Virus record (IMG/VR): IMGVR_UViG_3300025112_003145
Location: 1 to 22,265 of that record
DNA from: a virus
Reading direction: 5' to 3' (one strand)
DNA length: 22,265 nucleotides
In this document: positions 2,502 to 22,223 of the stretch, piece by piece
How positions within the stretch are numbered: the first letter of the stretch is position 1
How the letters are laid out: the number at the start of each line of letters is the position of its first letter
Program-made: the position numbers and the translations under genes
Notes under the pieces: generated by a model
The model's input: only the letters and a program-made list of their open reading frames with translations
Told to the model about the DNA's origin: nothing
The model's database searches: none

Positions 2502-3412
2502 TATGGCTCCAGTATTTCTAGTCCGTGAATACAGTGACGCATATCTTCTTCTAAACCAATCTCTTTTTCAAACTTTTGTGTTTCTATATCAAACATAAGA
2601 ACTCTAGCCGGTGAAGAGCCTAGGAAGATGTAGTTTTCTAATCTAGCCAGACCCCTGTTCCAATTGTTTTCAGCTATATCGTCAGCATAATATTTAACTG
2701 ATTCGGAGCGGGGGATGTCAGCAGTCTTACAAATGGAGTTTCTAATAATCCCCAATTTGTTCCAACCCGTTAAGTTAACGAGATTAAAATCATCGTATTC
2801 ATAGAAATTGTGTTGAAAACTTTTGGCTCTTTGAATTATGGGCATTGACTCGACTACACTCATGGTGTCAAAGTCGTATAGATGTGTAATTAATCCGCCA
2901 ACCACCAGCCTATCGGAAAACGAAGAAATCGAATTAATGTGAAAGTTGTCGTTTTCCTTAACTTTAGATACGTCAGTCAGGTGTTTGCCCGTAAGAGTTT
3001 TGTAATCACTCTGGCTTTCACCTAATATTTGATAGACGCCAACGATATTAAAGTCTAGGTCCACCTGTACTATACAATCTATTGCTGTAGAGGTGACCCA
3101 AATAGAACCTGCGAAAAAGCATATTTCGTGAATTGAACGAAAAGCCTCGCGGTCTTCAAGCTTTCTGACTACTTCGAAAGTTTCTTTGTCTAGCTCGATG
3201 AGACTAGTGGCGCTGGCAACGATAATTCTATCGTCGAGGACGCATATTCCTCTAAGGCCGCGCTCGCCACCTCGCTCGTTGTCATTGACGAAATGCTCGT
3301 CGTAGGGGGCGTGATGAATTACGCTCTCTTCTTCTACGTCGATAACATAAAGCCCACCGTGGCTAGAACCATGTTCAGCAGCCCTAACCACGGTGGTACA
3401 GATAATCTTCAT
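2501..3412 (-). CDS. Predicted beta-propeller-like protein (possible DUF4915-type)
   Basis: A 303-aa protein with repeated beta-strand patterns typical of six- or seven-bladed propellers: GLRGICVLDDRIIVAS (about 52-67), HEICFFAGSIWVTSTA (about 94-109), SFSDRLVVGG (about 164-173) and NRGLARLENYIFLGSS (about 252-267). This spacing of 'gl..l...i.vgs...' units resembles NHL/SMP-30-like propellers and TIGR03032/DUF4915 proteins, but I cannot confirm a family by eye. There is no signal peptide. An AGGA box sits just upstream of the ATG at 3412. It is coupled to the next gene by a 1-nt overlap. A sugar- or protein-binding role would suit the glycan genes of this genome, but that is inference. Confidence 0.7.
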   Translation of the reverse strand: MKIICTTVVRAAEHGSSHGGLYVIDVEEESVIHHAPYDEHFVNDNERGGERGLRGICVLDDRIIVASATSLIELDKETFEVVRKLEDREAFRSIHEICFFAGSIWVTSTAIDCIVQVDLDFNIVGVYQILGESQSDYKTLTGKHLTDVSKVKENDNFHINSISSFSDRLVVGGLITHLYDFDTMSVVESMPIIQRAKSFQHNFYEYDDFNLVNLTGWNKLGIIRNSICKTADIPRSESVKYYADDIAENNWNRGLARLENYIFLGSSPARVLMFDIETQKFEKEIGLEEDMRHCIHGLEILEP

Positions 3413-3421
3413 TCCTATAAC

Positions 3422-3592
3422 CTATGATGCTCTTAGGCTGTCCCCGACAATCCAAGCACCGCCTAGAAGGACTACGTGGTTAACCTGTTCTGGTGAAAGG
3501 CCAAGACCGAAAGCGTCGAAAGCTACAAATACAACGCCACCGATAGCAAGCCAAAATCTACGAGATGAAAAAAGACCGGAAACCTTATTCAT
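3422..3592 (-). CDS. Small holin-like membrane protein, 56 aa
   Basis: The ORF starts MNKVSGLFSSRRFWLAIGG and has two hydrophobic stretches (about residues 13-30 and 38-50) separated by a short turn with SPEQVN, ending in a short polar tail. The 'SRRFW-TM-loop-TM-AWIVGDSLR' layout resembles small two-helix phage proteins often annotated as holin-like or unknown. It overlaps the end of the upstream protease gene by 8 nt and ends 9 nt before the next start, so it fits the operon with no spare space. Ribosome binding is weak, suggesting coupling. A holin role is inferred from size and topology only; another candidate for membrane lysis factor lies at 8086-8409. Confidence 0.65.
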   Translation of the reverse strand: MNKVSGLFSSRRFWLAIGGVVFVAFDAFGLGLSPEQVNHVVLLGGAWIVGDSLRAS

Positions 3593-4538
3593 ATTTAGCA
3601 TCGTTGTTACCTCTTTTGATGTTTAGCAGTGTTGGAAACTTTACAGAATCCTTAGTTTTCTTTACTCCTTGAGCCGCAGCAGCAGTTCCTCCTTCTATTG
3701 GAAGTGAGACAATCTCTTCCAGAGTTGGGGTTTTGGCGTTTTCGTCAATTGCCCAAAGAATCTTCTCTTTTTGAGCATACTCCCTCATTCGTCTGACGGG
3801 AACTATCAAATTGAAAGTTTCTCCAGCACCTCTAACAAGCATGCCAACATATTTGCCAGCATCGGCGCCAGATTTTTCAGAAAGAAATACTCCTCCACCA
3901 GATGAGCCGGGAAAGCCGGGACATGAAGTCTGGTCAAATACTACACCATCTCCAGTGCCAAGGTCAAGAACTCTCCCTACCTGTGACATTATACCCCGCG
4001 TTTGCGAATTTGAGCCTACTTGTCCGAGTAAACTTCCCACATGATATAATTCCGTTCCAAGAGAAATCGGCTCGTCGTTGTTGACGTGAAATTTAACCCC
4101 TTTGGATATGAAGTCTCTTTTCCTTACCATTAAAAGAGCTAGGTCTTCTCCGTTTTCAGAATCACTATACTTTATAACTTTTGCGTCCATCTTAAGCTCT
4201 CCGACTCGACGCCCATTTTCTACAAGCTCTTTAACGATTTGGGCATCTTTAAATTCAATAATCCTTCTCGTCTGTCCATCTTTAACAATTCTTCTTTCAG
4301 AGCGGAGGCCGTCTACAACATGGGCCGCAGTCCAAATAAAGTTAATTTTTTCTTTCCCTCTCTTGGTTTGTATTTCCCGTGTAATTATTACCCCAGACCC
4401 TTCGCCAAGCCCACTCTTTACAGTAACAGATACGTCCTGCAAAAACTGGGAAACGTCTTTAACAGGAGTTTCCTCTGCTAGAACAGTCGGGGAAAACGAA
4501 ATAGCTAGGGCAGCTATAATAGTAGCCAAGATTTTCAT
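3585..4538 (-). CDS. Secreted trypsin-like (S1/HtrA-type) serine protease
   Basis: A 317-aa protein with a Sec signal peptide (hydrophobic residues 3-20, likely cleavage near VLA-EE at 21-22) and a chymotrypsin-fold protease domain. The catalytic triad is visible: H73 in WTAAHVVDG, D132 in GEDLALLMV and S213 in PGFPGSSGGGVF. About 85 residues follow the domain, with a charged C-terminus and no second membrane segment or PDZ domain. It is expected in the periplasm or outside the cell, unusual for a phage product. A good AAGGAAGGA ribosome site precedes the ATG, and the gene begins just after the terminator at 4562-4591. It may process virion or host envelope proteins. It is distinct from the larger protease at 5416-7422. 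Confidence 0.88.
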   Translation of the reverse strand: MKILATIIAALAISFSPTVLAEETPVKDVSQFLQDVSVTVKSGLGEGSGVIITREIQTKRGKEKINFIWTAAHVVDGLRSERRIVKDGQTRRIIEFKDAQIVKELVENGRRVGELKMDAKVIKYSDSENGEDLALLMVRKRDFISKGVKFHVNNDEPISLGTELYHVGSLLGQVGSNSQTRGIMSQVGRVLDLGTGDGVVFDQTSCPGFPGSSGGGVFLSEKSGADAGKYVGMLVRGAGETFNLIVPVRRMREYAQKEKILWAIDENAKTPTLEEIVSLPIEGGTAAAAQGVKKTKDSVKFPTLLNIKRGNNDAKYE

Positions 4539-5415: not shown

Positions 5416-7422
5416 TTATTCTATGTTGAATTTCTCTTTTAATCTCTGACGGATAAGAGTGTCAAGCTGACCCATTGTCATAGTTTGGTCATTTTGATAC
5501 TCATTAGTCAGTTCACCAATAACCGTCATAATTTGCTCTGAGGTTACTGTTTTCCTAGTGCTAAACGGTATGTTGATAAACTGAGGTGGTAGTCCATGAG
5601 CAGCTACTGGTTGTTGGTGATATGGAGTTGCAACAGGCATTCCGTAACCAGTAAAGCCGGGATGTAGTCCTTTCTGCAAATCATCAATTTCGTTGCTTGT
5701 TTGTGGTTTAGGACATTCGTCTGGAGACATTACATATTCATTTTCGTGTTTATGTTTATGAATATGCTCATGTCGATGAACGTGCTCTTTTGCATCACTG
5801 TCCAAGCTTGGAGGATGTGAAGGCCCCATATTATCATACCCTTCTTCTCTATCTAAATCTTCATTATCTTCTCCTCTTTTCTTTTTTCTTCGTCTTCTAT
5901 TAAGCAAGAATGGGACACCATACTTAAGAGCTAACATACCTAAGCTGGCTCCCCCAAGGGTAAAACTTACATTTTCAACAGTATTGCCATTACCACCAGT
6001 CGCTCCGTCGAGATAATGCGAGCCGTTCTCCTGCAATTCTTTTATAAACTTGTCTTTGTTGCCAACAAAAACTAAAAGTTGTTCTATTCTAGAACTCAAA
6101 GACTGCTTCTGCCCTTCTACAGCCCCAAGCAAATCTTTCAATCCGTTAATTTCATTATTAGCGGTCGAGAGATTTCCACTGACTCCAGAAAGTTCAGCTT
6201 TAAGACTTTCAGACAAAGATTCCAGATTCGTCAATTTTTCCTGAAGCTCTGTAATCTTGTCGAGATATTCCTGTCGCTCTTTGTCAAAGTCCACAGGAGG
6301 GTCTACAGGAGGGTCTACAGGACCACCGGGGTCTGGTCTGCCGGGCCAACCATTAAAACCACCACCACCGCCGCCATCTGGCGGGTTCGGGTTAGAGGGG
6401 GGTAATTGAGGTGGTTGGTTAGGTGGGGGACATCTGTTCCAAGGACACCAAGGAAACAGACCGTTTCCTTCATACAGTTCCCCAACTCTTACGCCTCCGT
6501 AGTATTTTGCCGTATCTGCAACGCTACCATCGGTCATCTTCAGTTCAGGACAAAACATAAACTCGCCCTTGATGGTTTTCCTGAGACCTCCCTTGTAGGG
6601 AATAACCACATGGTCTTTAATTTTATGTTGGCAATGTGGACAAGTGTGATTCAATCTTTCTTTTGCAGACTTGGTGTTTTTGCCTTCTTCTTTTTCATAA
6701 ACTAAATTATAGGAAGTCTCAATTGAATGACCCCTGCCATTCCCCTCCATTATATCATAAATTTGTTTAAGAGAAAGACCGGCGCCATAATCATTTGGCC
6801 CATCATCTGTCCAAGCACCATCTCCAACTCGCCAAGCTAGCAGGATTCCAATTCTGCTCTGAAGTTCGCCCTTGTCGTCTTTGACAAGAATAAGAACGCC
6901 GCTACCGGACTGGCCACCAATCGGCGCAGCGTTAAAGCTAACAACCGCTCCGGTGTTGGTCATTACTCTACCCTTCCAGTAACATGCCCATTGTGCAGAA
7001 GGGCATCCCCCACCCATGATTAAATCATTGGGTTTTACTACTGTACCTTTGGGGGCGAGGGGAATAACTCTGGGAGGATAACGACCAAAGTACTTCTTTT
7101 TAACTGAGAGAACCGCCAAGTCAAGAGCAGTTCCCTCTTCATAGGCCACGTACTCAGTATTGAAGGGAATCATTGCAGATTTATAACCATCTTGGAAAAA
7201 TTCCAAATGGCCCCTTCTAGCGTGTTCAATAACGTGACCGTTTGTTAAGACGTAATAGTTGTCTTTATCTTCAGAAAATACCGTGCCGCTTCCACGAGCA
7301 CTGTTTGTGTTTACTCTGCATACAGCATCTAAGGCTTCGTCCATCGTCAACGGTTGTGCTTGCGCTGCGCTGACGAGCGACCCTAGCGTTAAAGCGATTG
7401 CAAATATTAGCTTTTTCATCAT
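5416..7422 (-). CDS. Membrane-anchored trypsin-like protease with zinc-ribbon-like, coiled-coil and His-rich segments
   Basis: A large mosaic protein (668 aa from MMKK; numbering here counts six residues more, from the in-frame ATG at 7440). In order: signal peptide (about 8-29); protease domain with H69 in LTNGHVIEH, D107 in ALDLAVL and S178 in GGQSGSGV; a CPHC pair (C267, C270) with later C297, suggesting a small metal site; a Pro/Gly-rich hinge (about 338-385, with PVDPPVDPPVD repeats); a coiled coil (about 386-470); a transmembrane helix (about 491-513) followed by RRRRKKKR as stop-transfer; then a His-rich cytoplasmic tail (HVHRHEHIHKHKH, about 553-565) and a helical end. The predicted topology puts the protease outside the inner membrane. 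The start at 7422 is chosen because AAAGG lies about 9 nt upstream of it. Substrate unknown. Confidence 0.85.
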   Translation of the reverse strand: MMKKLIFAIALTLGSLVSAAQAQPLTMDEALDAVCRVNTNSARGSGTVFSEDKDNYYVLTNGHVIEHARRGHLEFFQDGYKSAMIPFNTEYVAYEEGTALDLAVLSVKKKYFGRYPPRVIPLAPKGTVVKPNDLIMGGGCPSAQWACYWKGRVMTNTGAVVSFNAAPIGGQSGSGVLILVKDDKGELQSRIGILLAWRVGDGAWTDDGPNDYGAGLSLKQIYDIMEGNGRGHSIETSYNLVYEKEEGKNTKSAKERLNHTCPHCQHKIKDHVVIPYKGGLRKTIKGEFMFCPELKMTDGSVADTAKYYGGVRVGELYEGNGLFPWCPWNRCPPPNQPPQLPPSNPNPPDGGGGGGFNGWPGRPDPGGPVDPPVDPPVDFDKERQEYLDKITELQEKLTNLESLSESLKAELSGVSGNLSTANNEINGLKDLLGAVEGQKQSLSSRIEQLLVFVGNKDKFIKELQENGSHYLDGATGGNGNTVENVSFTLGGASLGMLALKYGVPFLLNRRRRKKKRGEDNEDLDREEGYDNMGPSHPPSLDSDAKEHVHRHEHIHKHKHENEYVMSPDECPKPQTSNEIDDLQKGLHPGFTGYGMPVATPYHQQPVAAHGLPPQFINIPFSTRKTVTSEQIMTVIGELTNEYQNDQTMTMGQLDTLIRQRLKEKFNIE
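6290..6325 (-). repeat. Three 12-nt tandem units coding for PVDPPVDPPVD
   Basis: Near-identical units tccacaggaggg, tctacaggaggg and tctacaggacca (plus-strand reading) lie in the Pro-rich hinge of the large protease. They differ by a few bases. Such in-frame units can change number by slippage and would alter hinge length. Confidence 0.8.
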
Positions 7423-7489
7423 TATATTGGACCTTTCCATGGGGCATTAACCGTCAGAAAGTCCTTGTTACAAATCCTGATTATATAAA

Positions 7490-8490: not shown

Positions 8491-9063
8491 TTAGCCACCA
8501 GTTTTGGCCTTGTAGTCATCCTGTTTCGGAGTCAATGCCCCGTGCATGTAAACCAATTCGCCGGGAATGGCTCTTGTGGGAGTAGCAGCATCATCTGTTG
8601 CCGCCGTTGTGCCATCGCCAGCTTGGACAAAGTTCTTTACAGCCCCTGCGCTTCCATGCTTGGTTGCAATACCAGTCACGTAATTAATAGAGGTGATGTT
8701 GTAGTCGTGGGTTTTGACTATTGGATTGATAGCGCGACGGCCAGCCTTGTCAGATGCGCCGCTCTGAAGAATGGTATTGCTGACATTGTTGACCTTGGTG
8801 CTGTAGCCACGAAGCAGAAACTGAGGGTCGCTCGCAGCGGGTTGATAAGCCAACGTTCCAGAACCCTTGCTTGTAGTGACACCGGGCTTAAACTTGGTTC
8901 CCGTGCTTGCAAGGACTTTGCCGCCATAAGCTCCAGCCTTGTGAAGAACATCCATTAAAGTATCAGAATTTGTAACAGCGTTGGTGCTGTCAACGTTGCC
9001 ACCGTTAAGAACGGTTGCGCCATTGTTTCTCTTGGTGCTTCCAGAAATAGTTGTTGTAGCCAT
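8491..9063 (-). CDS. Ala/Gly/Ser/Thr-rich protein, probable virion protein (hypothetical)
   Basis: A 190-aa protein beginning MATTTISGSTKRNN. The start at 9063 is chosen because GGAGG lies just upstream; an in-frame ATG at 9102 would add 13 hydrophobic residues and bury that site. Composition is low in charge and rich in Ala, Gly, Ser, Thr and Asn, with beta-type segments such as HDYNITSINYVTGIATKHG (about 118-136). No signal peptide, no repeats and no recognised domain. The strong ribosome site, its own terminator and the composition all suggest an abundant structural protein such as a head decoration or tail component; that is inference. Confidence 0.75.
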   Translation of the reverse strand: MATTTISGSTKRNNGATVLNGGNVDSTNAVTNSDTLMDVLHKAGAYGGKVLASTGTKFKPGVTTSKGSGTLAYQPAASDPQFLLRGYSTKVNNVSNTILQSGASDKAGRRAINPIVKTHDYNITSINYVTGIATKHGSAGAVKNFVQAGDGTTAATDDAATPTRAIPGELVYMHGALTPKQDDYKAKTGG

Positions 9064-9148
9064 TTGATGACCTCCAATAAAAATGCCCAGCAAAACAAAC
9101 ATGATGTTTTAGATTAGAACAAGACCAGTAACCATAAGCACTGTGAAC

Positions 9149-11158: not shown

Positions 11159-11359
11159 TCAGCCCTTGCAAGCGCAACCATTCTTGCAGTCTACACCACA
11201 AGCGCAGACATCGCAAGCACAGTCTTCGCAAGAGCAAGCGTTGTGTCGAGGACACACGTCGTGGTTATGGCCGAGCAGAGGACACCAGTGCATAGCGTAT
11301 CCAACAACTCCACCGATTAGAAAACATAGCCAGTGCTGCCGTACATAATTCAGTAACAT
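11159..11359 (-). CDS. Membrane-anchored cysteine-rich miniprotein (metallothionein-like tail)
   Basis: A 66-aa protein with one hydrophobic helix near the start (LCFLIGGVVGYAM, about residues 11-23), then WCPLLGHNHDVCPRHNAC and a run of CxC and CxxC units. There are 12 Cys in 66 residues, nine of them in the last 30 (ACSCEDCACDVCACGVDC, then KNGCACKG), plus His residues at 25, 31, 33 and 39. This could bind zinc or copper like a metallothionein, or form disulphides if outside the cell. Topology is not certain. The start is well supported by GAGGAG with 7-nt spacing. No homologous family is recognised. Confidence 0.75.
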   Translation of the reverse strand: MLLNYVRQHWLCFLIGGVVGYAMHWCPLLGHNHDVCPRHNACSCEDCACDVCACGVDCKNGCACKG

Positions 11360-11468
11360 TTTTTTCTCCTCGTTGTAGTGTTATTAGTATTTCATCCATT
11401 TTTTTATCTTTTCCGTCTTTCTCTTCGTCATCGCCATTCTTCTTGTACATTTTTCCGGCATCTTCTTC
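11265..11468 (-). pseudogene. Displaced 3' remnant of the 12281-12718 gene after WavE insertion
   Basis: Immediately downstream of the WavE-like gene the frame reads EEDAGKMYKKNGDDEEKD, repeating the EEEDAGK found at the end of the 12281-12718 protein and continuing in the same charged style. The two stretches share 17 identical bases. The simplest reading is that the older gene once ran EEEDAGK-MYKKNGDDEEKDGKDKK-MDEI and was split by the WavE-like gene. The frame stays open to 11265, overlapping the cysteine-rich gene by 95 nt; only 11360-11468 looks like former coding sequence. An ATG at 11450 or, in another frame, a 25-codon basic ORF (11384-11461) could still be translated. Confidence 0.5.
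11452..11468. repeat. 17-nt direct repeat, copy downstream of the WavE-like gene
   Basis: TTTCCGGCATCTTCTTC, identical to 12297-12313 and in the same orientation. The last two bases form part of the WavE stop codon. The two copies bracket exactly 828 nt. Confidence 0.9.
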
Positions 11469-12291
11469 ACAACTGCTCCATATTTTCAATAGAGAAATCA
11501 CAATCATGGTGAGACTTGACGTGTTCGTAACTACTATAACTTTTCCCTTTTACCTTACAGAGAAAATTTCCCATGTCGCGTAAATGAACTAACTGTGCAT
11601 GGTCGTTCATTATTTTCTTGCTTTGGGAACAATCTATATCCACTCCTTTGTTCTTTAAAAAAGAAATGAAAAGGAAGGCTTCGGGAGAAACCTCTCCGTT
11701 ATTGTGTAAGCCCTTGTATAAGCCCCTATAATTTTCAACTCCGAGCATGGAACAGTGAGCAGGGTTTTTCCTAGCAGGAAGTTTTTTGCAAAAATCTAGA
11801 GCAGTTTGGTACATTCCAAGAATGTTCTCCGTTTTACCACCTGCTATATGGTCAGACGGATGAAGTTGTTCTAGGTCGTCTGGAGCAAACATAAAATTGC
11901 TTGTGGTTAATTTTTCAGGGCTGGACTTCATTGCTTGTATAAATTTTGATAGCTTTGTATAATACTCATCACATCTAAGTTTGATTGCATATTTTGTATT
12001 TACCTTTTTCAGCCCGTTTAAAGAGCTAGCAGCCTGATAAGCTACATTGGAATTATTATAGTAGTCGTCATATTTTGAGATGTCTTCTTTGACTACGGTG
12101 ATGTTTTTATTTTCAATTATTTTATCAGCATTGTCTATAAAACTACCTACAGAATTTTCCCATGTAGATATGATAATTTTATCAACCAAATTTAAATACT
12201 CATCAAGGTGGTGCAATCCTTCTGCTGTGCTTTCGTCGTAGGTAGAGACAAGTGGGCCTTGCATAACTATTGTTACATCTTTATGTTTCAT
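11467..12291 (-). CDS. WavE-family glycosyltransferase-like protein
   Basis: A 274-aa protein with the marks of the WavE lipopolysaccharide-synthesis family: DVTIVMQGPL at residues 5-14, VDKIIISTWENS (36-47), and YAIKLRCDEYY (101-111, the acidic D108/E109 near the probable nucleotide-sugar site). WavE proteins are GT-A-like transferases for lipopolysaccharide core or capsule sugars. No membrane segment. The gene begins 5 nt after one copy of a 17-nt repeat and its stop codon TGA runs into the second copy, so the insert consists of this gene and almost nothing else. The first ORF upstream ends inside its start (11-nt overlap). A GGAAAG from the repeat acts as ribosome site 4 nt before the ATG. 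Confidence 0.8.
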   Translation of the reverse strand: MKHKDVTIVMQGPLVSTYDESTAEGLHHLDEYLNLVDKIIISTWENSVGSFIDNADKIIENKNITVVKEDISKYDDYYNNSNVAYQAASSLNGLKKVNTKYAIKLRCDEYYTKLSKFIQAMKSSPEKLTTSNFMFAPDDLEQLHPSDHIAGGKTENILGMYQTALDFCKKLPARKNPAHCSMLGVENYRGLYKGLHNNGEVSPEAFLFISFLKNKGVDIDCSQSKKIMNDHAQLVHLRDMGNFLCKVKGKSYSSYEHVKSHHDCDFSIENMEQL

Positions 12292-12718
12292 TCAACTTTC
12301 CGGCATCTTCTTCCTCAACGGGAACGCACTTCCCATCTTTCGCAACGTATCCTTCGTTGCAGTTAGGTGGATACCCAGCCTTCTTGTTCGCATTCGTATA
12401 AGATTCCGCTGCTTTGTTTAAAATGTGGTTTGCCCACTCATTTAAATCGTCTGACATAGTCTCACCTTTTACTCGCTTAACAAAGATTAAAGTTCTACCA
12501 TTTTTTCTATGCCCTCCCCTCCTTTTGAAGTGGAAAAGCTCGCCAGTTTTAGGGTCTTCATATAAGAAAATCGCAGAAGATTTTCCTTTATTTTCCCACT
12601 TGCTGTTACAAAAAGCAACTCTTTGTTTAGAATCTGGAAAATCCCTTTTAGCCTCTTCGCTAGACATGCATCTAGAGATATAATTTTTCTTCTCTTCGTC
12701 TTTACGTGGCGATGGCAT
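12281..12718 (-). CDS. Phage protein with 'CMS..EFPD..QR.AFC.S.W' motif; C-terminus altered by insertion
   Basis: A 145-aa protein. The N-terminus (MPSPRKDEEKKNYISRCMSS, then EEAKRDFPDSKQRVAFCNSKW) carries a short cysteine motif found in many phage proteins, often near capsid-assembly or protease domains; its function is not established. A basic middle (about 50-85: GELFHFKRRGGHRKNGRTLI) is followed by helix and by a small PPNCNEGYVAKDGKCVPV segment. The chain ends EEEDAGK-LNET, where the last four codons come from the WavE-gene flank. The ATG at 12718 follows AAGGG by about 7 nt. The protein is probably a C-terminal truncation of a longer ancestor continuing at 11450-11380. Confidence 0.75.
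   Translation of the reverse strand: MPSPRKDEEKKNYISRCMSSEEAKRDFPDSKQRVAFCNSKWENKGKSSAIFLYEDPKTGELFHFKRRGGHRKNGRTLIFVKRVKGETMSDDLNEWANHILNKAAESYTNANKKAGYPPNCNEGYVAKDGKCVPVEEEDAGKLNET
12297..12313. repeat. 17-nt direct repeat, copy upstream of the WavE-like gene
   Basis: TTTCCGGCATCTTCTTC, identical to 11452-11468. In the 12281-12718 frame it codes for EEDAGK. Confidence 0.9.
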
Positions 12719-12728
12719 TTTAGAACCC

Positions 12729-13577
12729 TTATTTTTTGTGCCCGATTATAAGATAGTTGAAATCGACCATTTTGGGAAATTCCTCATGTATTTCAATTTC
12801 AAAATCATCTGTAAGCATATCGTGAAAATCGCTTAGTCTTTTTGCTGGCCATTTGTGGGGCACGGGATTCATCATAAGATAGATAGATTTTGATTTTTGT
12901 ATATATCGTTTATAGTATTGAGATATCCCTTTGTTATCAAGTTCCGCAATGCAAAACTCGCTAATCGTCAAATCAAAATCTTCTGTTTCGCCAGAATTGG
13001 TTTCTACATTCAAAGCTGTCAGGTACTTTTTAGACAGGGCCACCACATTATCTAAGTCAACCAACTCATAAGATTTAATATCGTAGAACGAAGACAGAAC
13101 AAAACAAAGTCCACCATATCCTACACCAATTTCGACTACATTTTTGTTATTTAATCCACCAAAATACTTTTCGATATCACACAGCGTATTTATCCTGTGC
13201 ATCGTATCTGAAGAAATCATTCCGTACTTTTTTGAATCCCATAAACCGGGGTTTCCTATGGTATCATTCTTTTTGAATATGTCTATACTTTCTATTGCTT
13301 GTGGGAATTCTTTTTCTGCTCTTTCTAACCATTTCTTAGCTTGAAGTTCATTGCACATCCCCACTATGCTGTTATATTTTGGCTCACTCTTAAAGTTCTG
13401 AAAAGTAGACTCGTTATTAATGGCATCATCAACAATATCTGAATAATCATTTACTACTATTCTATTAACATCCCATTGTTTAAACTTATCTTTTGGTCTC
13501 TCAAATCCTTCATTTGAAAAAATGAGCATATCTCCTTCTTGACTGGCAAGATATTTATGAATATTTACTCTAGACAT
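12729..13577 (-). CDS. SAM-dependent sugar O-methyltransferase-like protein
   Basis: A 282-aa protein with SAM-binding motif I NVVEIGVGYGGLCFVL (146-161, EIGxGxGG), an acidic residue after strand two (YELVDLDNV, about 170-178) and FDLTISEFCIAEL (about 199-211) as motif-IV-like strand. The long N-terminal part (residues 1-140) with GNPGLWDSKKYG resembles the 'putative sugar O-methyltransferase' family (TIGR04371 type). It would methylate a sugar hydroxyl in the glycan made by the neighbouring transferases. The start overlaps the GT4 stop by 8 nt. Substrate unknown. Confidence 0.8.
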   Translation of the reverse strand: MSRVNIHKYLASQEGDMLIFSNEGFERPKDKFKQWDVNRIVVNDYSDIVDDAINNESTFQNFKSEPKYNSIVGMCNELQAKKWLERAEKEFPQAIESIDIFKKNDTIGNPGLWDSKKYGMISSDTMHRINTLCDIEKYFGGLNNKNVVEIGVGYGGLCFVLSSFYDIKSYELVDLDNVVALSKKYLTALNVETNSGETEDFDLTISEFCIAELDNKGISQYYKRYIQKSKSIYLMMNPVPHKWPAKRLSDFHDMLTDDFEIEIHEEFPKMVDFNYLIIGHKK

Positions 13578-15653: not shown

Positions 15654-15659
15654 ATTATA
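15654..15659 (-). promoter_or_regulatory. Possible -10 box upstream of the glycan genes
   Basis: A perfect TATAAT on the minus strand (GGGTATAATACTACAAAGG) overlaps the stop codon of the previous gene and lies about 37 nt before the ATG at 15617. The nearest TTGAAC is only 13 nt upstream, too close for a normal -35, and GCTTTT at 17 nt is weak. A phage-factor promoter is possible. Confidence 0.35.
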
Positions 15660-16128
15660 CCCTGCCCGTTCTGTTCAAAAGCTTCTTTACGGGCTTCAAA
15701 AAATAATGTCCGATGAATCCTCCAATTCTATTCATTCCCAGAGAAGTTCTAAGTTTGTTTTCTAGTCTGGTTAGCGGACATATTTCTCTAGTGAAAGTAA
15801 CTGTTAATATAAAGCTGTTTAGGGGCATCCATATCCATAAATCGTATAGGAATGGCAGAATAAAGAAGGCCGCAATATTGACCAGTATCACAAAGGCATG
15901 GAACCCAATTAGAAGATAAAGCAGCACCTTCTTCACGTCATCTATTCTTTTTGGTTTCTTGCTGTATAAAGCTTTAAGCATTTCTAGACTGACTTTAAGT
16001 GAGTCGTTGTCAGTCTTCTGCCCAATCTCTTGTTCTAATCTCGCTGTAAGTTCTCTGGCTTGTTCTTCATCTAAATATTCGTCTAGTATTTCAACTATAC
16101 TAAAAGCTTCTTGCTGACTAGTGGGCAT
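15655..16128 (-). CDS. DUF2784-like membrane protein
   Basis: A 157-aa protein with an acidic helical N-terminus (1-60, IVEILDEYLDEEQARELTAR) and a hydrophobic region (about 66-113) forming two or three helices: KVLLYLLIGFHAFVILVNI, AAFFILPFLYDLWIWMPL and NSFILTVTF. It ends with REICPLTRLENKLRTSLG and GGFIGHYFLKPVKK, a pattern close to the CPLT-LE-LR...FI.HY signature of DUF2784 membrane proteins, whose role is unknown. GGAGG lies 5 nt before the ATG. The N-terminal extension is not typical of that family. Confidence 0.7.
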   Translation of the reverse strand: MPTSQQEAFSIVEILDEYLDEEQARELTARLEQEIGQKTDNDSLKVSLEMLKALYSKKPKRIDDVKKVLLYLLIGFHAFVILVNIAAFFILPFLYDLWIWMPLNSFILTVTFTREICPLTRLENKLRTSLGMNRIGGFIGHYFLKPVKKLLNRTGRV

Positions 16129-21195: not shown

Positions 21196-21653
21196 TTTTG
21201 AACCTTGAGATTATAGGCAATCCCCTTGCCGCCAGTATCCAATTCTTCTACTACAACGTTTCCATATCTATCCCTTCCCTTAAGATTATCTATCTCCTTC
21301 CATATTTGAGACCATCCTTCTTCTGTGTCGCCTTCAACCCTAGCGGCCTTGTCGTCTATATACATAATGCCAGCTAGCTTGCCCATGTGCGCATGATGAT
21401 ATTTAACACCGTGGTCTTCTAACCAATCTGTCCACTCCCTGTATCCTCTCTCATACTGCCTGTGTATGTTTCCGTTCTCTCTGTCGCCATATCGCGCAGT
21501 ATAAAGAACAATCTCATACCCCATGTCGTATAGTTTGTTTACTTGGTCGATGCCGTGCTGAAGCGGGCCAGCTTTAGAATAATCACCACCGTGATTCTTG
21601 TCTGCTATAACTCCATCACAATCTACTATTAATCTTTTACTGCTGTCTGGCAT
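21192..21653 (-). CDS. HAD-superfamily phosphatase-like protein
   Basis: A 153-aa HAD-fold protein with all four motifs: RLIVDCDGVIADK (7-19, D11 nucleophile and D13), IVLYTARYGDR (motif II, Thr in LYTAR, about 48-58), a Lys in MGKLAG (about 89-94) and MYIDDKAARVEG (motif IV, Asp-Asp, about 96-107). The C-terminal part after about 115 is a polar extension. The type resembles small HAD proteins found beside capsule or nucleotide-sugar genes; nucleotide or sugar phosphate are likely substrates. The start is inside the end of the nuclease gene (17-nt overlap), with GGAG upstream. Confidence 0.8.
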   Translation of the reverse strand: MPDSSKRLIVDCDGVIADKNHGGDYSKAGPLQHGIDQVNKLYDMGYEIVLYTARYGDRENGNIHRQYERGYREWTDWLEDHGVKYHHAHMGKLAGIMYIDDKAARVEGDTEEGWSQIWKEIDNLKGRDRYGNVVVEELDTGGKGIAYNLKVQK

Positions 21654-22140
21654 ATTTGAAGCTCCTTGTCAGCCAGTGTATGTTGTTCTTGCCGTAGCTA
21701 CTTAACGTGCTTTTTTTGTCTCTGTTCTTTCCAGAATTTAAAAATTTTTCTTCCACTCTTATTACTCCGCAGGAAAAAGTTTTGTCGTTTATTTCCAGAA
21801 GAAGAAGAATAGATTTGTTCCGTATTTGTTTAGGAGAAATCATCCAATTTTTTCTGACCGTAGTTTTAATATCGAACTCCAACCCATCAAGTAGACAGTC
21901 ACAGTTTACACCCTGACGAGCCGAAAGTTGTTTTCTTATATGTTCTTCTACCCTTGCTCCTACCAAAGTCTTTCCAAGAGGGTCTAAGTCCTCTATACTA
22001 TTCGCCCCAAACTTCGCTTCACGCACAGCATCAGAAATAGCCGTAGAAATCTTGCCTGTAAAATCTTTAGTTCTTTCAACTATCGCTGAAAATTCTTCGA
22101 CCTTGGGTTCTTCTTTTTCCCACAAGAAAAGTTGTTTCAT
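21637..22140 (-). CDS. Stand-alone NaeI-type endonuclease domain
   Basis: A 167-aa protein that matches the endonuclease domain of type IIE enzyme NaeI: GKTLVGARVEEHIRKQLS (56-73), DCLLDGLEFDIKTTV (81-95), NWMISP (98-103), GKNRDKKSTLS (137-147) and NIHWL (153-157). E65, D81, D90 and K92 reproduce the spacing of NaeI catalytic E70, D86, D95 and K97 exactly. NaeI itself is about 317 aa with a C-terminal CAP-like DNA-binding domain, which is missing here. No DNA methyltransferase is in the window, so it is not a visible restriction-modification pair; it could cut host DNA or rival phage DNA. No Shine-Dalgarno site is seen. The start lies 10 nt after the tRNA. Confidence 0.85.
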   Translation of the reverse strand: MKQLFLWEKEEPKVEEFSAIVERTKDFTGKISTAISDAVREAKFGANSIEDLDPLGKTLVGARVEEHIRKQLSARQGVNCDCLLDGLEFDIKTTVRKNWMISPKQIRNKSILLLLEINDKTFSCGVIRVEEKFLNSGKNRDKKSTLSSYGKNNIHWLTRSFKYARQQ

Positions 22141-22149
22141 TTTATTAAA

Positions 22150-22223
22150 TACCCTTGGCAGGACTCGAACCTGCGACCCTCGGATTAGAAATCCGATGCT
22201 CTGTCCAACTGAGCTACAAGGGC
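22150..22223 (-). tRNA. tRNA-Arg (anticodon UCU)
   Basis: A complete 74-nt cloverleaf on the minus strand: acceptor GCCCTTG/CAAGGGT (G-U at the end), D-arm GCTC...GAGC, anticodon arm TCGGA-TTTCTAA-TCCGA with anticodon TCT (reads AGA), 5-nt variable loop, T-arm GCAGG-TTCGAGT-CCTGC and discriminator A. The 3' CCA is not encoded (TTT follows). It probably supports AGA codons, which occur often in these genes. Confidence 0.95.

Follow-up and report, generated by a model that had tools for sequence, protein, structure and literature searches.

Probable gain of a WavE-type glycosyltransferase gene by recombination between phages at the end of a split gene

How does a phage come to carry a single surface-glycan gene between two copies of a short sequence, when its close relatives carry neither the gene nor the second copy? 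The locus lies in a 22,265-nt stretch of viral DNA (IMG/VR record IMGVR_UViG_3300025112_003145), here called the window. An earlier note on this DNA had described an exact 17-nt direct repeat bracketing 828 nt with a WavE-like gene alone. We confirmed the coordinates and the identity of the two copies, and the bracketed segment holds exactly one ORF, which matches PF07507 (Table 1). With up to 3 mismatches allowed, the repeat still matched at these two places only, and none of 100 dinucleotide shuffles reached two matches. No other identical 17-mer pair in the window is non-tandem: the one further pair is part of a tandem repeat with a 12-nt period (6293/6305), and about 0.04 pairs were expected (mean over Markov sequences of the same make-up). 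The insert junctions read GAAGAAGATGCCGGAAA-GTTGAATGAAAC and CAGTTGT-GAAGAAGATGCCGG. At the latter the WavE stop codon spans the boundary between insert and repeat, and 0 nt separate that stop from the repeat. No transposase was found in the window, in agreement with the earlier note, nor did the insert show terminal inverted repeats or an end-to-end inverted repeat. On the minus strand, sites resembling promoters or terminators do not flank it, those found being inside coding sequence or distant, and the only match in an Rfam search was a tRNA. Because transposase, terminal inverted repeats, flanking promoter or terminator and room for attC are all missing, the event looks like recombination rather than the work of a mobile element. 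A search of viral_contigs for the exact 17-mer gave 21 records, and L040-L060, each with fewer than two window proteins by tblastn, were not retained.

Table 1. Positions of the features discussed; coordinates are those of the window unless a relative is named.
Feature	Position	Strand	Remarks
17-nt direct repeat, two exact copies	11452-11468 and 12297-12313		TTTCCGGCATCTTCTTC; same orientation
Upstream repeat copy	12297..12313	(-)	coding strand GAAGAAGATGCCGGAAA = EEDAGK; ends L001-type block
Downstream repeat copy	11452..11468	(-)	gives GA of WavE stop codon
828-nt insert	11469..12296	(-)	5 nt + WavE ORF through first base (T) of the stop codon; lacking in syntenic relatives
WavE-type glycosyltransferase, 274 aa	11467..12291	(-)	PF07507; full length vs L183/L184/L185; predicted GT-A fold
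P0001, upstream gene, 145 aa	12281..12718	(-)	native K-rich C-terminal tail cut after EEEDAGK; LNET-stop from insert instead
Orphaned P0001 tail remnant	11360..11451	(-)	MYKKNGDDEEKDGKDKKMDE...; L005-type by alignment to L005/L001/L002
g11159, 66 aa, Cys-rich	11159..11359	(-)	directly after P0001 in empty relatives
Second variable site in relatives	L103 5573-8990; L102 5529-8984; L101 4760-4960
Paralogue region	window 9056-9102; L101 10532-12155; L103 14695-16340

The WavE protein matched PF07507 with E=6.7e-16 and 58.8 bits, above the curated cut-off of 27, and its ends coincide with those of its phage relatives L183, L184 and L185. Its structure model (pLDDT 84, pTM 0.87) had GT-A-like enzymes and nucleotidyltransferases as best PDB matches; since the TM-scores were modest, mostly 0.36-0.45, this likeness holds at the level of the fold only. 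From family and fold, WavE is predicted to transfer a sugar, putatively to a glycan on the surface of the host or on the virion. The new end of P0001 overlaps the start of WavE by 11 nt. In L183 and L184, the gene upstream of WavE runs 14 nt past the WavE start, and the relative frame of the two is the same as in the window, which makes translational coupling plausible, and WavE translation is probably coupled to that of P0001.

The upstream protein had been said to end with EEEDAGK at the repeat. The motif does lie there, but the stop does not: P0001 reads ...CVPVEEEDAGK and runs on within the insert as LNET-stop. In L005, the same protein ends as ...CVPVQEEDAGK-MYKKKADKKDKKKNGDDEEKDGKDKNKWMKH-stop, and L001 and L002 have a version of this tail. 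On the other side of the insert, the window keeps an orphan peptide (MYKK...NGDDEEKDGKDK) that is found within the P0001 tail of L005. The tails of L005, L001 and L002 all match the orphan MYKKNGDDEEKDGKDKK..., which therefore is the missing tail of P0001. It has suffered two deletions. The longer one took 30 nt from a repetitive stretch; the shorter one, of 2 nt (AAAAACAAATGG to AAAAAAATGG), shifts the frame of the tail and abolishes its stop. With these lesions, the orphan tail is already in decay. The next protein, that of g11159, is 97% identical to its L005 counterpart and 62% to that of L001, and in relatives with a joined tail g11159 starts at most 25 nt after P0001.

That one gene was split, as proposed from the window alone, is borne out by four close syntenic relatives. 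L001, L002, L005 and L063 are empty, the tail joining EEDAGK (EEDGGK in L063) to g11159, and blastn alignments to the four stop exactly at 12297 or up to 6 nt away. L001, L002 and L005 have one copy of the repeat sequence, which leads straight into the K-rich tail and then g11159. A degenerate DNA scan for CVP[V/A][Q/E]EEDAGK found the records of these three only, each empty and with one copy. Thus, the check that the earlier note had suggested turned up, among IMG/VR records, both homologues reading from the motif directly into the tail and an empty one-copy allele. Neither relatives with two copies and no WavE nor homologues ending at EEEDAGK, which it had named as counter-evidence, were seen. 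In a tree of three conserved proteins, where L001, L002, L005 and L063 are rows L068, L071, L066 and L067, the window falls inside a five-row clade with support of 100/100, whose other four rows are all empty. This nesting indicates that WavE was gained, and gain is the preferred direction since it takes one change, while ancestral presence takes several losses. The insertion is best read as a young event. Named phages gave no DNA or WavE match, so at that level the window has no cultured relative.

We then asked from which parental types the flanks derive. Read with its flanks joined across the insert, the window alternates between L001-type and L005-type at gene boundaries, and the insert sits where the two are joined. 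The 3' part of the methyltransferase-like gene at 12729-13577 is L005-type (110 sites vs 12), and P0001 before the repeat is L001-type (57 informative sites vs 6). The remnant tail (16 vs 1) and g11159 (69 vs 2) are L005-type, and from g10889 onward the window is L001-type again (27 vs 5, 113 vs 12, 155 vs 14). The parental switch at the insert is placed between 12338 and 11449, the sequence being L005-like from 2 nt past the downstream repeat, and two further switches lie at gene boundaries, at ~12720 and 11150-11090. The flanks thus differ in parental ancestry, as expected for phage mosaic recombination. At 12318, the window matches L005 (and L002); this site is of no use for placing the left crossover, because L001 alone has C there. 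With flanks of two parental types, the 17-mers may be orthologous copies brought together. Yet both carry GGA where L001, L002 and L005 carry GGG, and this shared variant favours a true duplication, by copying from one sequence.

The junction between P0001 and g11159 is occupied in different ways among its 19 known alleles, window included. It is empty in six relatives (L001, L002, L005, L063, L080, L081), and holds a ~280-aa protein in nine (L003, L004, L011, L076, L078 with two copies, L079, L087, L090, L100) and a sulfotransferase in three, namely L012 (PF13469/PF00685) and L077 and L135, close homologues by eye. WavE occurs there in the window only. Three members of the 280-aa family (L003, L011, L079) were scanned with no Pfam match. 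The family's model (pTM 0.86) found its best PDB matches in the GT-A transferases GnT-I, TarP, TarS and SpsA, and on this confident model the family is predicted to be a GT-A-fold glycosyltransferase. The tree requires at least five changes of slot state, and L078 and L079, whose core proteins are identical in the tree, are nevertheless one whole transferase gene apart. In the eight filled alleles with measured gaps, the extra gene ends 7-17 nt inside the start of g11159; the window keeps a 107-nt scar. The 12 other filled alleles, which hold other genes, showed no flanking repeats above chance, and hence no target-site duplication, and HNH endonucleases were present in only 2 of 13 records. 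The small g11159 protein, with its hydrophobic N-terminal stretch and Cys-rich tail (CPRHNACSCEDCACDVCACGVDCKNGCACKG), adjoins the slot throughout the phage group.

The suggestion that phages exchange glycan genes at this site agrees with the repeated presence of such genes (GT-A, sulfotransferase) in the slot. Tentatively, the junction might be a dedicated exchange slot: the end of P0001, repetitive and rich in K, E and D, would serve as a tolerant landing site, and genes for glycan modification (those of GT-A transferases, sulfotransferases and WavE) would be gained, swapped and lost there; the window would then represent a fresh event whose scar is uneroded. A limited literature search found no published account of the slot and its contents, and the phage collection contains no cultured relative of the group. 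The joints of most phage gene gains are erased by age. In this case the alleles without an insert, the split gene and its decaying remnant, the parental origin of either flank and the type of donor operon are all recognizable, and with 19 alleles known at one slot, the way in which phages acquire single surface-glycan genes is open to direct test.

Taking this together, we consider it likely that the window lineage gained WavE when co-infecting phages recombined, the junctions falling at gene ends and short homologies and the recipient slot being the end of P0001, directly before g11159. An exchange or template switch would have left an L001-type P0001 for the donor WavE gene, then gone back to P0001, now of L005-type, where EEDAGK is conserved, so that one 17-mer would remain on each side. 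Alternatively, the 17 nt would have been copied twice as synthesis re-entered the same template. Candidate donor microhomology would take the form GGAAA 5' of the WavE start and TGAAGAAGAT 3' of its stop; microhomology at the junctions is a proposal only, as the donors found are too distant to place the junctions.

The nearest WavE genes, those of L183, L184 and L185 (identities of 50, 48 and 39%), lie in glycan operons of phages akin to the window's group, together with NAD-epimerases and other small genes, and the contigs of L183 and L185 also carry P0001 homologues (L104, L007). Homology to L183 extends ~4 nt upstream of the WavE ATG. Single-sequence scans of viral and genome contigs gave no close relative of WavE, and a profile search reached phage relatives of at most 50% identity and cellular ones of at most 36%. 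Among the 20 relatives' records first searched, WavE was present elsewhere in L007's contig alone. In L185, a gene starting MKKILVTGG directly follows WavE, and a hypothetical donor with GTGAAGAAGAT after WavE would have 9 nt in common with the repeat of the recipient. Of 16 related records, 14 encode a RecA-family recombinase, with a match over the cut-off in 13; ERF and RecT recombinases were searched for and not found. L185 itself has two diverged WavE paralogues (1669-2526 and 2962-3819), separated by a small gene within one glycan operon.

The earlier note had offered insertion with target duplication or recombination at a short homology. The insertion stands. Duplication of the target, either because the WavE unit entered at a staggered break or because a polymerase re-entered 17 nt back, would derive both 17-mers from one sequence and make the mosaic switch a separate or later event. 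We regard it as possible, though doubtful. It would account for copies that agree at 17 of 17 positions, GGA included, and the left crossover is not fixed; 12318 is L005-like, so both copies could sit in an L005-type block. Against it, and against a repeat-generating cassette mechanism, which was not supported, stand the 12 other filled alleles without the repeat, the lack of transposase and terminal inverted repeats, and a switch between two parental types that coincides with the insertion point. An improbable alternative reverses the direction: the order repeat-WavE-repeat would be old, and in the relatives slippage between the two 17-mers would have removed WavE and healed the gene exactly. 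Deletion between direct repeats does leave a single copy, and L002 seems to have lost a cassette with a scar at a nearby site (window 15663-15669). Yet several independent losses would be required in a five-member clade, distant homologues (L003, L100 and others) keep in-frame K-rich tails, and the tail that decayed, with its frameshift and lost stop, is the window's and not the relatives'.

The window is a single record of metagenomic origin with flanks of two parental types, and a chimera of two phages and a third fragment, produced in assembly, would give such a picture. We hold this to be quite improbable: parental switches of this sort are seen at other gene boundaries as well, the deletions in the remnant tail are present in neither parent, the overlap of P0001 and WavE is coherent, and 17 nt is shorter than the usual assembly k-mers. 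An integron-type gene cassette, or a classical moron with its own promoter and terminator, seems very unlikely. The insert does hold a single ORF, and its first 7 nt, GTTGAAT, fit a loose GTTRRRY box when read by eye. But the overlap of the WavE stop codon with the downstream repeat leaves no room for attC, nothing resembling a promoter or terminator lies beside the insert on the minus strand, and the insertion is within a gene, not between two.

Recombination between phages is therefore the best reading of the WavE gain, and it is a kind of event already known. In the mycobacteriophage LRRHood, a 1.35-kb segment of four genes, including a repressor, lies between 29-bp direct repeats of which relatives have one copy, and its authors favoured acquisition by recombination with another phage, the partner being unknown (PMC3029335). 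LRRHood resembles the window in that one phage has an extra segment flanked by a short direct repeat present only once in close relatives. In contrast, the window carries a single glycosyltransferase gene, the gene that was split persists in part as a decaying remnant, and the parental type can be identified on each side. Next to the extra gene 68 of Island3, the upstream gene's 3' end is repeated over ~50 bp, which was ascribed to short-repeat recombination; both cases were explained by recombination, between phages or by deletion (PMC3029335). Island3 differs from the window in its unknown gene, longer repeat and unresolved direction of change. Relaxed homologous recombination builds phage mosaics by gene-scale exchange that tolerates divergence, as established for Rad52-like recombinases of temperate coliphages (PMC3945230); the window's group instead has RecA-family genes and gave no ERF or RecT match. 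As with phage morons, WavE is an extra gene that close relatives are without, but it lacks a promoter and terminator of its own and is placed inside a gene end. The window is a well-resolved case of this known kind of phage recombination.

Other parts of the window also vary. At a second site (15655-15669), L001 and L063 have ~3.4 kb between the DUF2784 and GT47-like genes, with GT2-like, radical SAM/SPASM and, as seen in L063, methyltransferase genes. L002 retains just a 3' scar that looks like the methyltransferase gene's end, and still less is left in the window, so that the cassette seems to have been deleted at this site. Several relatives have a longer paralogue directly upstream of the gene at 8491-9102; the first codons are common to it and the window gene (MFVLLGI.IGGHQMA), whose N-terminus may therefore be a fusion left by deletion. 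Two trypsin-like peptidase genes (PF13365) lie close together at 3585-4538 and 5416-7440, and the larger one has a Pro-rich linker containing the 12-nt tandem repeat (6293/6305). Near the contig end, a NaeI-like restriction endonuclease gene (21637-22223; PF09126, E=2.7e-17) lies by a tRNA-Arg(tct) gene.
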